In this document: positions 49,451-62,400 of the stretch, piece after piece
Numbering within the stretch: position 1 is the first letter of the stretch
Layout of the letters: each line of letters starts with the position of its first letter
Origin: Maylandia zebra
Taxonomy: Eukaryota; Chordata; Actinopteri; Cichliformes; Cichlidae
Reading direction: 5' to 3'
Assembly (NCBI RefSeq): GCF_041146795.1
Contig: NC_135184.1
Location: 10,096,967 to 10,160,966 of the forward strand
Length of the DNA stretch: 64,000 bases
The notes under the pieces: model-generated
Databases searched by the model: none
Seen by the model: only the letters and a program-made list of their open reading frames with translations
Told to the model about the DNA's origin: nothing
Translations under genes and position numbers: made by a program

Positions 49451-52400
49451 GAGAAGAAGGAGAAGAATAATAATATAAAAGTAAAGAAGTAGAAGTATAT
49501 AAAGCAGACCAGCCAGACAAGAGCACGACAAAGGATATTAACAACCATTAGACATAACACAGCTTTCCCAACATACATTCAGCTACTATTAAATAAATTG
49601 TAAAAGTAGAACAAAAAAAAATTCAGGCCACAGTAAATGCTTCCAATCTTGTCAGATTAGATTTATAAGAAGGGGAACGAACCCGCCACTGAGGTCTCTT
49701 GGTGGCGGGTCAGAAACCTTCTTCCTTTCTATTGGGCGGCTGCGAGAACAGCAACTCTACTAGCAAGAGGGCTGCTTGTGGAGGCAACCACCCTTTAACA
49801 TCAAACACACTCATACTTAGAGCTGGAGGAGCGATGAGATGTTATTTAACTAGACAAAAGCCTAACCTATGCTGTGTTAGGAGTAGTACGCTTGTTTTCC
49901 TCCATGCTAGCATCCAAAACCACAATAAAGGGTTATTACACCAGGCTTTAGTTTCTTATACTACTATACTATATACACTAAAGCATGCTGATCTTGGTCT
50001 TACTCTCGTTGAATGAATGTAAAGTCTATGATGCAGCATGTGCAAGTAAACATTTATAACTCATCCAGCTGAAGAAACAGAAGGTGGAAATGGGGAGGAA
50101 ACAAACCAGTCACATTGTTCTACAGATGTGCATGTCGGGTGGCAGTGAGAGTTACAGCGTAGGGTTTCAGACATATCTGCGGCGCGTTTTAGCACAAAAC
50201 CCTGCTCGAGCACTCACCTTGTTTCTTATAATACTCCTCCCAGGCTTTCGTGTAGTCCTGAGGTTGCTGACTCTGTTGACCTGCAGAGTGAAAAGGAAGA
50301 AACACGTTAGAGCATTCAAGCATCAAATCGAACCACAAAACATAAACAATGACCCTACATTGCTTATATGCACAACCCCACAAGTCAAACACTCATCATT
50401 TAACTCCACAAAACACACACACTCAATAACAGTAAAACATTCATAGCACATGGAAGACTGTGCCATCAGTGTGGATAAAGCCCTGACTTAGTCTAGAAAA
50501 TAATCTACTCTGAGCTGATAAAGGTGGATCTGTGTCCACAGCAGTCCTGCAGATAGTCAAAGTGTCCCAGTCTAAACAGCACAGCCGTCAAAAGTCAAAC
50601 AAAGTGGAGGCACACTTGAAAACGCTCCACGGCAGGTTAGTAATGCTCACAAATACCCAGACCTGAAAAAGAAGCTGACTAAATGGCCGAGGGCTGTTTA
50701 GACTGTCTTGTGTTAAGAGGTGTACACTGAAACTACGTTCATATACCCATTTTCTTGTAATATTCCTCCCAGGCCTTGGTGTAATCTGCCTGTCCACTCT
50801 GACCTGCAGCCTGTGGGTCACCTGTTAAAGAAAACGGTACTTGTAATTAGTCAATCATTCTCAGCAGTTTGTCCTCCACCTGCCTGGGTTGGGCTGTCAG
50901 CCTAGGGGTGGTGGAGGAAAACTACCCTGTTCCTGGGGTATTTAAAAAAATGTTAAAAAGCTGCTCTGCAAAAGCAAAGTCATTTAAAAGTTGAAACCAA
51001 ACCAATTTGTGTTTGTTAGTAACACAAATGAGACATGAGCACAGCACACTATCAGGTAAGTCTACTGAACTACACTGAGCTTGTCTGAACACTTTCCGTT
51101 TCTTCTGCTCCTCTGCTTTGCTTTAAGTGAAAAAACACTCCGGTTACCTTGGCCGTTGGCTTGACTGGTGCCGGGCGCTCCGCTGGTCGGGGTCATGGGA
51201 GCCTGCGGCTGCTGGCCGTATTGAGCGTAGTACGCTGCCCACGCTGCTGCGTTGGCATCCGCTGCTGCTTTATCTGCACGCAAGAAACAAGCTGGTAACC
51301 ACACAACAGCCAGGACTCATTCTGGCAGCAGCAATGTTGTGCCTTACTGAAGACGTGCAAAGGCTAATGCTAGCCAACTGTAATAAGACACCATGTATCG
51401 TCAAATCTGCTGATGTAATCAATACTTGTGTTTTAGCACATAAATCTCAAATGCTATAATATTTTGAAAGCAAATATTTTCAAGAAAAAAAAAACAAGAG
51501 TGTCAATAAAAGAGCATTTACTTCTGTAATTACTTTTTGTGCCTACAGGGGGCACTGCTTCTCCCCAGAGTGCAAATTCATAGTTAAAAAACAAAGCACC
51601 GAGCTCCTTGGCCCTGAAACTTCACCCTTTAGCGCTTTCCAACATTTATCCTGTTTGTTCCATTGTTTTTCATTTTGTTTCTGTTGGGTCGCTGTATTTT
51701 ATGACTAACAGATATACTTTCTAACCTCTGAGTATGATTTCAAATATTAAAATATGGCAAAGGGCTTTTCACATCAAATGCCCCCATTAGGAAATACTCA
51801 CTTGGATCAGGCTGGCCCTGCTGCCAGTGTGGGTAGCCGTTGCCCCATCCCTGAGGCTGATATGGAGCAGGAGGACCACTGAAGGAAGAAAATAAGTAAC
51901 CATCATCTCTCAGTGAGCCATGTTCAGATATTCTTACTATCAAAGAGGAGGCAACTGTACTTACTGTGGTCCGGGTGGGCCCTGATTGTATGGTCCAGGA
52001 TTGTATGGACCCATGGGAGCACCAGGGGGTCCAGGTGGTCCTGGAGGACCATGTGGACCTGGTCCTCCATGTGGGCCAGGAGGGCCATGTGGGCCACCCA
52101 TGGGAGTGACAGGTCCCTGATCAGAGAAATGGTGCGGTCAGTATAAGAGGGGTAAATAAAAAATAAATACCAGAGTCTTCACATGGAGGCTAATTATAAA
52201 AACAGTTAACTCACCCCAATTTTCTCCTCCACTAGTTGCCGGGCGTAGTCGATCTGCTGAGGAGACCCTCTGACTGTAAACATCTTAATGTTGGGGTCAG
52301 CGTTGGGCGGAGGATTCCTCTGGAGCTCGATTCTGGCTCCCGACTGCTGGCTGATGCCCTTGATTGTCTCACCACCTGGAAGAGAAACATGGTCAGAGTT

Positions 52401-55400
52401 TACAGGGAGAAAAATATTTTAACCGTTTTGGTTGACCCTTTCGTCTCTCTGATCTCTCTACCTTCAACGTGTCACTCTCTATTGTGTGTTCAGGTCTCAG
52501 ATTATAGGGTTGGGGTTATCCATCAGCTTGTCAGCGTGGTGCATGAGTTTTCATCACAGACCATACACATTTTAAACCATTATTTACTCCATAAGGTGAT
52601 TACTAAGAGTGCACTACACTCCTAAAGTTTGTTTTAATAACTGAGCTCGAGCCCCACTGCTGTTGAGGAGCGACTTACCTTTCCCAATGATCAGACCAGT
52701 CTTCATGGTCGGGACCGTAAAGGTAAACTCTTGGAGGCCACCAGGGGGGCCCATGTTCCAGTTGCCCTGACCGCGACCGCGTCCCCTGCCACCTCCATGC
52801 CCTGGAGGTCCTCCCGCCTGGACGCTCCGCAACAGGTCGGAAATGATTTCTGCCGCGTGCTGAGCCTGGTCAGGGGGACCCATGATCTGCGCTATCCTGT
52901 CTGGTGTGGTGCCATCATCTGGAGAGAGGAAGGAGGGCGATTTGAGACAACTGAATCACAATTTCAGCTTTGATTTCTATTACTGCTGTCACATTAAACA
53001 AATATATACTTTTCTAGTATTTCCTCAAATTATGCCTCTAACCAGCGATGCACTGTGCATGTGTTCAGGTCTCAGATCATAGGGTTGGGGTTATACATCA
53101 GCTTATCAGCGTGGTGCATGAGTTTTCATCACAGACCATTTTAAACTGCTTGATTTGCTTCATGAATGTCATGTTAGATGCTCACCTGGTTTGAACTGAA
53201 TCCTGACGCCTGTGTCATTCTGAATTTTCTTGATCATTTCTCCATTTCTCCCGATAACAATTCCTACTGCAAAACGTGGGACAGGAACCTGAACAATAAG
53301 AGGACAGAAAAGCAAAATTAACACGATCCAAAAACCCTGGTCAACAACGTGATGAATTAAACAAATGACAAGTACTGACATCTAAGCTGTCTCCTCCAAT
53401 CCTTGAACCGTACTCGCTCCTCTGCTCCCTGAAGCCCTGATCTCTAATCAGCTCCATCACCATCTCTTTGGCTTGCTGGGGAGACAAAGTACATATTATT
53501 ACAGTACAGTCTCCATGTGGAAGACTTGGAATTTAAAAAAAAAAAGTTTTATGACATCAAAATCCCAGCTGAAGTCTCACCTGAACTTTAAAAGGTTCTC
53601 CTGAAATGCGTAGTGGTTTGTCTGCGCCTGTGTTTTGGGGCCCATCTTGGATCATGACCATTTTCACTCCAGCTCGTTCCTGCAAATGAGAAAATAAAAC
53701 AAAAGGTGAGTCAGTAGCAATCACATCTAATTATCTCTATATTTTTTTTGTCTCACTTTGACTTGAGGCTCACCTGAAGGCTTTTGATGGTTTCTCCTCC
53801 CTTGCCAATGACAAGTCCGGCTTTAGAAGCAGGTACCATAATCTCCTGAACAGTCATTCCTGGGCCGTCGTTGTGGTGGAACGCTGGGGCCGGACGCCCC
53901 TTCTCAACGATTTCTGTTAGTAGCCTCTTTGCCGTCCTTAAGGGAGAAAAAAAATTACCATTTTGTTTAGTAACGGATAGTAGGGCTGCTCGATTACAGC
54001 AAAAATTATAATGGCAACTTTTGGACTTTGGTCAAAAATACATTGCTGCCCACACCAGCTTCCACGGGAATTCTGCATATGAAACAGGGGTGACACTTAC
54101 TGGATTGATTCTGGTAATCCTGTTAATGTCACCGACCGATCTGGCATCCCTCCGCTGTCTACAAGGGAGAAGACACTGTAAACACAAAACCCTCCAAAAA
54201 CAGTTGGTATGCTCCGACTTCTCAGCACTGGCAGCAAATCCAAACCTACCAGGGGCAATCTGTATTTTGCACCCAGACTCCTGCTGGAGACGTGATATTT
54301 GTTCACCTCCTCTTCCAATAACTAGAACAGGCAATGACAAAAAACAAGTATAAATATCAAATTCTAAGAGCACAGAAGTTATGCTTTTTGGTGGGGGGGG
54401 GGGGGGGGGTTTGTTTTGTTTTTTTAAAACAAACACTTACTGAAGCCAACCATGCCATCTGGGACCTTGAATTCTTCTGATGTTGACCTTAGGATAACGG
54501 GAGATTAATCAACATAAACTTTATAATACAATGAAGCCAAGCACAGTATGTGAACATGTTTAAATTGATAATGCCCGTTTACCTTGGGGGACCAGCCATT
54601 CCTCCAATACCTGAAAAGGCTGCAAGAAGACGACCAATTAGCCAAAAGAAGACTTAATAAAATAAAATACAATTTTGAAGAACCAAATTTCACATTCTTG
54701 CACATATTTGGCCTTTTTAAAGTAGTAAATACAACTGCACCTTCAGTTCACTTACCATCATTTGTAGCCACTTTCTTTGTCTCTGGTTGGTCTGTGAAAA
54801 AAATGACATAACCAGTGTAAGTACCTCTCATTATTCCCATGCCACATCACATTATTAGCTCCCCCCCCCCAATCAAAGAAAAAACAAACTGATTTTACAC
54901 ATCTAAAATTCATTTGTCAACACTACGTGGAATTTAAACAGTTCAGACAGCTGGATTAGACGCTCATCTGCCAGCTTCCTGCATGCATACTTGGCTTGAT
55001 ATCCTATCTGAAGATGTTTAGTCCTACTCAACGCTGATGCTAAATCCTCAGTTTTGTTTAACATAATTCAACAATACTCTGCAACACAGAGCTACACTGT
55101 AATGTTCTATCTGCCAGATTATTCAAGCAGCCAGAGTCCTTGCACTTATTAACTCAGTAATGAAGTCAATTCATTGGCTCCAAATTAGAAATAAATCACC
55201 ATTGAAGTCCCTGTATTTGTTCAGCTCTCAAAGGTTTGTTAACCCCAGTTCTGACTTGATCAGTGCCTATAACCCGATTATACCTCAATTATACCTCTCA
55301 AGCAGGATGTCAGATTTTTCAGAAGAATACCCCCAAATTGTTTTTCCAACTCAGAAATCCTGAGATGTCCCGCTAATCCCGATTTAACAATCTTAGATGA

Positions 55401-59435: not shown

Positions 59436-62400
59436 TCAAGACTCCAAGGAGGAAAAAACATTTTCAAATTTTCTAGTCAGAGTGTAGTTCATTAAGGCAC
59501 ACGGTATCGCCCTGACGAAGCTGGCTCCCATGCCATTATAATATCCTTTAATTCCATATCTTTCATATATCCCAATCAGTCCCGGTAATACACCCGAGGC
59601 TGGCCGTGAATCTGATCTGAAAGCTGAAGAACAAGACAAACAAACATGAGTAAAACATTCCCACATAAAAGCTTCATATGAAACTGTAAACTGTGCCGAA
59701 TGAATGAGAGCCGATACCCTGCGCTTGCTGCTGAGTTCGGATCACCGCCAGCGGGTAACTGGTGATTTGTCCAGAAGCGAACGCCACAAAGCTGAAGAAA
59801 AACAGTTTGGAGTCACTGTTGTAGGCGGGATCGCTTTTTGCCCAGCTCATGATTGACTGCAATTACAAAATAAGCAATTAGCATCTTTTCAAAATAAAAG
59901 TTCACTTGATCTCTGTTGTCTTCTGGCCCACCTGATGAACAGCACACTCCACACCTGCATAGGGGATCATACAGAGGATGCTGGGCTTGAATCCTCTGTA
60001 AAAGGAAGACAAAGACTCGCTTCTATAAATGGATCGGGCACACACTGCAACACCATGGTAAGTGCCAGCCTGCTGCAGGTTCAGCCTCACCTTCAGCACC
60101 TGTAGAGAAAACAAGAGGAGAGTGAGACTGCTAAAAGAGATCCCCACTAATAAATTAAAGTGGGTCTATTAGTCTCAATTCTTGGACTCTACTAGAGCAG
60201 CTTTGAGTGATTCAACAAATTTTACATTATCATACAGTTTAGCTAATGCTGAACTTTGGTGAAGCCTGTCAGTTCATCTATTGTCTGAAACAAGACTCCT
60301 TAATTCCTCAGCCTCTAAACCAGCTTTCTTCAGGTTTGCTTTGAGTAGCAGTGGGGCTTCACAGCCACAGAGATCACAACCTTTTTTCCCTCACCTAATT
60401 CTCCAGTCACATGTTTCCATTGTATAACTATTCTCCAAACACTTGTCTGGCAGTAAATTTTTGCTTTTGCTTGTTTCCTACCTCATGTTTTTTTCTTTTG
60501 GTTCCTTATGGTTGCTACGTAAAATGCATATTCCCCAACTGGCAACTGGTTGCTGGCTCAAAACCCTCGTTGTGATTGCTTTGGTCATTAACAGGTTCAA
60601 ATGGAACATGCCAACTTGTTTGCAGACACTGGCCACTTACTCTGTGAGTTTAAGCGGCACTTTAAAAAGTGCAGCTCAAACCAGAAACAGAGAATATTCA
60701 CCATTAAAAGGAAAGCTGTGCCTTATTGCTGCAACAAACATATCTCAAAAAGCACACATTTTACATTAAAAGGGAACAGTTTCCCTTCTTAAAAAACTTC
60801 ACCACTTAGAGAGTAGTTTGCAACTGTTTGGAGACAATTCAGGATCTTCTTGTGATACAAACAATTGCAAGGAGTTTTTCAGTGCAGCATTGTGTAACTG
60901 TTTGCAAACATTTACTCACTATGGATGGCTAGCAGCCTCCACTAACCACTCTCCAACAGCTGCAGAAGAAATGCTTTTTCCTAGCAACTGGTTGCTGACT
61001 GGTCTCTAGGCATGACTGGAGCCCTAACCTGCCATGTTGGTAATAATTTGGGGATTTTGGGCTTTTACATTTCTGTTAACTAGACTTCTACAGGGGAAAA
61101 AAAGTTTATGTAGCACATAGTAATTCAGAAAAGATACATGTCCTGAAATAAGAGGGGATATGAATATATACCATTTTACCCATTTGCTGTGCTATCAACT
61201 GTTTATGATTCAGAATACCTGCTGTATAATTCATCAAACTCAAGATGACCTCATGCTCAAAACACCAGAAAACCAGAAAGATTAAAATATGTAGTGAAAT
61301 ACAAAGAGAAAGGTTAGTAGTTAGAGGAACAGGGGTTTGCTATCGACCGTGCATCTTTTTTGTATTTATTCACGTGCTCTGTGTGGGATGGGAGGAAGAG
61401 TTTGTGCATTTTGGTTTTATGATGCTCGTTTGTTTTTGTTTTTAATAAAAAAAAAAATACATTTATTGTTGATAAGATGGTGTTGACATGATGTTGATAT
61501 CATCAGTGGTAACATTTTTGCTTGTATTTGGGCTGCTGACTGTGGAGGGGTTATTTGAGACTTTAGTGTGACGAACGCAAACAAAGGAGAGCCTCTAAAA
61601 ATATCAGAGCACGCTGGCCTCAGTACAGAATGTTAGTTTAATGTTGTTATAGCATAAAGGGGAAAAACTGAGTTGAATAACACAGTATCCTCCAGTTTCT
61701 CATAATGTAAGAAGCAAAAGCTCAGTTTTAGTATTTTCCTCACCTGTTTACTCCACATTGCCGTGGCGATTTATCAGCCTCAAAGTAATACAGAATACAG
61801 TTATTCACGGCCATGAGATTACAGATGAAGATCACTGTTTCCCAGCATCTAAAGTATTTGTGTGGTTGTTCACGCACTTCCTCATGGTGATTGTTTAATA
61901 TTAATATTGGAACATGTGTTGTTCTCTTTGGAGATACTGTAGAGACTGACTCATTTGTTTATGATAATAAAAAGGCTTTATAATGAGTCTAACAATGACA
62001 TAGTAACAATTAAAACAGTCAGTGATCTGCACTTCAGGACAGAAATGTTAAAGTACTCAGATCTGCCACTGATCTGACCTCTAAGGGGTAGAAGACAGCG
62101 TGAGCCACAGCTCCAGAGATGCAGCCCAACCCGAAACGCTGCTGCACTGTCAGAGTCTGCTGGGTCCTGTTTTGGGTGTAGACCTTCATCTAAACGGAGC
62201 AGAGGACATCTGAGTGTGCTAATCAATCGGAAAAAAATAAACTGTACACCAACAGCTCAATGCTCAGCCTCACCTGGGCGTAGATAAGACACTGAAGTGT
62301 CGACTGTGGCGTTCCTTTCAGCACGTTGACAGCATTGCCTTGCCACATTGACCGCAAACCACCTCCTCTCATCTCCTGAAAACCCTGGGAGAAGGCCTTG

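Follow-up and report, generated by a model that had tools for sequence, protein, structure and literature searches.

The window analysed here is the whole stretch of 64,000 nucleotides from Maylandia zebra, and on its minus strand eight exons at 52215..54322, running from VIGRGG to EEKIG, encode four KH_1 stretches. The 331 residues from the joined exons show 98% identity to FUBP1-named proteins of spiny-rayed fish (among the best 120 of 2299 matches), and the top match for them among solved structures is a FUBP1 (FUSE binding protein) chain. A FUBP_C motif is found in a later exon of the same gene and, judged by these matches, the host gene is FUBP1. Upstream of FUBP1, also on the minus strand (59439-60165), the translations of open stretches resemble by eye a mitochondrial solute carrier of the SLC25 type.

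Two introns of FUBP1, both flanked by these exons and separated by a single 240-nt exon, each contain a sequence of 72 nt on the minus strand, in host sense. Copy A (52492..52563, with a GGTC...GACC core at 52493-52562) lies in an intron of 303 nt (52376..52678) and copy B (53067..53138, core 53068-53137) in an intron of 267 nt (52919..53185), both introns being of the GT-AG type on the minus strand. Copy A has box C GTGATGA at 52551..52557, the D' guide TCATGCACCAC at 52536..52546, box D' CTGA at 52531..52534, box C' TGATGGA at 52519..52525 and box D CTGA at 52497..52500, all on the minus strand. In copy B, on the same strand, box C GTGATGA lies at 53126..53132, box D' CTGA at 53106..53109, box C' TGATGTA at 53094..53100 and box D CTGA at 53072..53075, and the alignment places a D' guide equal to that of copy A at 53111..53121. 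The first-pass annotation had proposed a pair with these positions, strand, C, D', C' and D boxes and GGTC/GACC stem, and all of this agrees with the sequence.

Sequence of the twin copies

Both copies have the RUGAUGA box C, the CUGA box D and the terminal stem that are expected of a box C/D snoRNA; of the internal boxes, D' CTGA is exact, and C' appears in the relaxed forms TGATGGA and TGATGTA. A rule that combines the four boxes C, D', C' and D with a terminal stem of 4 bp, drawn up after the pair had already been seen and applied to both strands, finds two sites in the 64-kb window, namely copies A and B. When the window was simulated 60 times with a first-order Markov model, every simulation gave 0 sites.

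The two copies are identical at 69 of 72 positions, in line with the initial estimate of about three differences in about 72 nt; the mismatches are located in the D'-C' spacer, in box C' and in the D-side stretch. It had also been claimed that the D' box, the D box and the guides are identical; this is correct for the D' guide, but the antisense stretch on the D side differs by one base (A/G, the third before box D). Similarly, the description of the surrounding intron DNA as unrelated does not clearly hold, since upstream about 35 nt align with 26 of 32 bases in agreement, with gaps, and the 8 nt directly downstream of the two copies are identical. Among 1000 dinucleotide shuffles per flank, 6 reach the upstream match score and 428 reach the downstream score, so that the likeness of the upstream flank alone goes beyond easy chance. 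As this flank aligns beside the nearly identical core, the unit that was duplicated to give the pair was probably a little longer than the RNA itself. A core that changes more slowly than its flank is consistent with selection, in what is a small sample, and gene conversion could be an alternative cause of the slower change.

Family assignment and the probable 18S target of the D' guide

A comparison with Rfam, proposed as a check in the first-pass annotation, gave 0 matches in the window at gathering scores, but at E-values up to 5 the best matches were to C/D snoRNA families. In a search of a 1,001-base region at this level, nine of 12 matches lie on the host strand and belong to C/D snoRNA families, and the lowest E-values are those of both copies against RF00300 (snoZ221_snoR21b), a C/D snoRNA family: 35.1 bits with an E-value of 1.5e-5 for copy A and 34.9 bits with 1.7e-5 for copy B, both below the curated gathering score of 44 bits for membership. 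RF00133 (SNORD32/33) is absent among these 12 matches. The plant snoR21/snoZ221 family of RF00300 resembles the fish RNA in UCAUGCACCAC before D', which is letter-identical, in the D' guide, which occurs as the same string in the plant family consensus, and in similar C, D and stem elements; it differs in length, with a model of 91 positions against 70 nt for the fish RNA, and the score of the fish copies of ~35 bits remains under its gathering score.

Bases 2-12 of the D' guide form 10 Watson-Crick pairs and one G-U pair, the final one, with 18S GUGGUGCAUGG. The fifth base from D' pairs with a G, which precedes UGCAUGG in 18S and is position 1280 of the SSU consensus, and no other offset gives 9 or more pairs in the 34-nt piece of 18S tested. 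At least 10 pairs with the fifth base on the target, as in C/D antisense elements, are therefore found on the 18S of other eukaryotes, since the rRNA used comes from two eukaryotic contigs (L001 and L002) and the Rfam SSU consensus and not from this fish; the target stretch is identical in all three. Guide base 1, which adjoins D', is mismatched to the rRNA, and we count this against the guide reading proposed below. The string and its register are those of the snoR21b model, as expected of a guide for 18S Gm1328. As GGUGGUGG is repetitive, the equation of this G with Gm1328 rests on the register common with snoR21b, and the human number 1328 is carried over from site tables and not from a count along full-length 18S.

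The IMG/VR contigs L001 (3600-4543) and L002 (4050-4305) bear eukaryotic 18S rRNA (RF01960), perhaps by contamination or because the contigs are misclassified. In the viral contigs, scans with the guide pattern and with four 28S patterns gave 0 matches each. The long form of the guide pattern had 0 matches in the genome contig collection; three matches of the short form lie in bacterial contigs with no gathering-level snoRNA match and were taken as chance.

Human U32A/B (SNORD32) carries its guide beside D rather than D', and its host gene is RPL13A. A search of the fish genome with PF00572 gave three matches on C11, in surroundings that are not recognisable as RPL13A. U32A/B shares the target Gm1328 (PMC5597630, PMC3511168) but is a double guide that is also listed for 28S A1511 (PMC3511168, PMC2653536). 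According to PMC8817022, yeast Gm1271 with snR40 corresponds to human Gm1328 (guide printed as 'U232A') and to Arabidopsis Gm1272 with AtsnoR21, and a single table row in PMC3511168 joins AtsnoR21, U32 (RF00133) and snR40, with the yeast site numbered 1269. With snR40 the fish RNA has its proposed target in common (Gm1271; PMC8817022).

Related copies in KPNB1 introns

A DNA search of the fish's own 962-Mb assembly found three places, which are both FUBP1 copies and a third (82% identity, E-value 1.8e-8) in KPNB1 (importin beta-1; G000:C4). Three introns of KPNB1 hold three copies, all in host sense. Copy 2 (L008 1499-1567) has kept C, D', C' and D, with a stem of only 3 bp (GTC/GAC); in the copy at L008 2400-2469 box C is altered to GTGAAGA, and in the copy at L008 775-835 box C is lost. 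Box D and the 3' splice site are 70 nt apart in KPNB1 copy 2 and 101 nt apart in KPNB1 copy 3, and the introns adjoin the exons for residues about 702-876. Because only one of the three KPNB1 copies came up in the DNA search, the family total is to be read as at least five. An RNA model (R1) was built from four copies and recovers those four by construction; it also detects KPNB1 copy 1 (34.3 bits, E-value 1.2e-7). On the window R1 gives three further weak matches (best 16.2 bits, E-value 0.026), and over L008-L010, which cover 18,559 bases around KPNB1, its matches are these three KPNB1 copies and none besides. Another KPNB1 intron contains SNORA79 (RF00600) at L008 1862-1999, where the score of 76.2 bits exceeds the family cut-off of 55.

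Across the five copies from FUBP1 and KPNB1, all 10 columns of the CATGCACCAC part of the D' guide and all 4 of box D' are invariant, as are 7 of 8 in box D with its stem side, 5 of 7 in box C' and 3 of 7 in box C; the D-side stretch has 7 invariant columns out of 17, and the spacer none out of 5. Leaving aside the copy that lacks box C, these values rise to 6 of 7 for box C and 9 of 17 for the D-side stretch. This column conservation suggests that selection acts on the D' guide, and it offers no hint that the D side has a function.

In chicken, GGgCD25 has two isoforms, in introns 4 and 7 of KPNB1, with a 12-nt 5' antisense for 18S-G1286 and with snR40, snR21 and U32A/B listed as functional homologues (PMC2653536). 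The same source describes U32A/B as a double guide in human, whose functions are split in chicken among single guides. GGgCD25 and the fish pair are alike in their 5' (D') antisense, in the 18S site by way of the listed homologues and in having two isoforms per host, and they are unlike in host, which is KPNB1 and not FUBP1; the link is one of target, guide side and the fish KPNB1 relatives, as the chicken RNA is represented here by a table row and not by sequence. Since GGgCD25 lies in KPNB1 introns (PMC2653536), the KPNB1 form was already known. FUBP1 as a host of such a snoRNA was not found in the titles and abstracts that searches of a CC-licensed library gave; FUBP1 is unmentioned in PMC10234308, PMC12309372, PMC2653536 and PMC2832892, as is FUBP in PMC3349704. 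The RNA family is known, and the new part would seem to be its location in FUBP1.

Proposed function and alternative explanations

The view that these are duplicated intron-encoded box C/D snoRNAs, already taken in the first-pass annotation, is supported by the Rfam matches, by the register of the guide on 18S and by the KPNB1 paralogues, in which the boxes and guide are retained while the spacer drifts. Based on the sequence, the pair is very probably a guide of the 18S Gm1328 type, of the family listed in chicken as GGgCD25. We are highly confident in a reading of the pair as paralogous C/D snoRNAs of FUBP1 introns that would both act on one rRNA site, and we infer its steps, from transcription and processing to snoRNP assembly and methylation, from the family. 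The snoRNAs would be freed from the spliced FUBP1 introns and their ends trimmed to the GGTC/GACC stem, followed by snoRNP assembly, and the shared D' guide would then bring fibrillarin to the 18S counterpart of human G1328 for 2'-O-methylation. As duplicates, the two copies would supply one and the same ancient guide twice over, probably redundantly. A KPNB1-type copy may have reached FUBP1 by trans-duplication, with a later duplication within FUBP1.

Another option, which we regard as improbable, is that the FUBP1 copies are silent pseudogene duplicates that are not processed, the working guide being KPNB1 copy 2 or U32 in RPL13A. In splicing-coupled C/D snoRNAs box D usually lies about 70 nt from the 3' splice site. 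The distance from the end of box D to this site is 121 nt in copy A and 153 nt in copy B, which exceeds the usual value and counts for silent copies and against processed ones; moreover, one KPNB1 relative combines a retained set of boxes (C, D', C', D) with the 70-nt spacing, and the loss of box C in one other means that decay occurs in the family. Yet neither FUBP1 copy shows damage in boxes C, D' and D, in the stem or in the D' guide, and the two differ from each other solely in the D'-C' spacer, in box C' and in the D-side stretch, whereas the stem of KPNB1 copy 2 is itself just 3 bp long. Longer outer stems are also predicted for both FUBP1 copies by cofolding of 10-15 nt flanks (-9.5 kcal/mol for A, -6.6 to -8.4 kcal/mol for B), and these may compensate for the long spacing to the 3' splice site.

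It is very unlikely that the pair is no snoRNA and instead an element of similar look that was duplicated within the introns and serves regulation or splicing; two closely alike copies within one gene would suit such an element, but the C/D geometry, the Rfam match, the rRNA guide in register and the relatives of the same geometry in KPNB1 introns, also in host sense, all speak against it. We give almost no credence to the pair being a local SNORD127, the snoRNA listed for 18S Gm1447 (PMC5597630): this site and the paired stretch do belong to one region of 18S, but the identity is contradicted by the guide register, the target G at SSU-consensus position 1280 is well upstream of the UUCUUAG near 1410 that pairs by eye with the U61 model guide (U61 guides Um1442, 5 nt from 1447; PMC5597630), and the chicken guide for G1402, placed in PRPF39 intron 10, named SNORD118 there and directed to a position 5 nt away from U1397, the U61 site, has an entry separate from GGgCD25 (G1286; PMC2653536).

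Read as paralogous snoRNAs of the Gm1328 type, the FUBP1 pair enlarges the guide family of an rRNA methylation that is common to yeast, plants and human (PMC8817022) by two copies and one host gene. Rfam-based annotation would miss copies of the family in this fish, since they score below the Rfam cut-offs. A wider and rather speculative interpretation is that a host switch is in progress, in which an ancient guide for a single 18S site would have left KPNB1 for FUBP1 and the two clean copies would carry most of the dose; their shared D-side antisense AACCCCAACCCTAT, which is not kept in KPNB1, may have gained a target of its own. With two hosts in one genome, and with stages in which the boxes are kept, box C is changed or box C is lost, the family offers a natural test, on a small scale, of the way in which snoRNAs change host genes.
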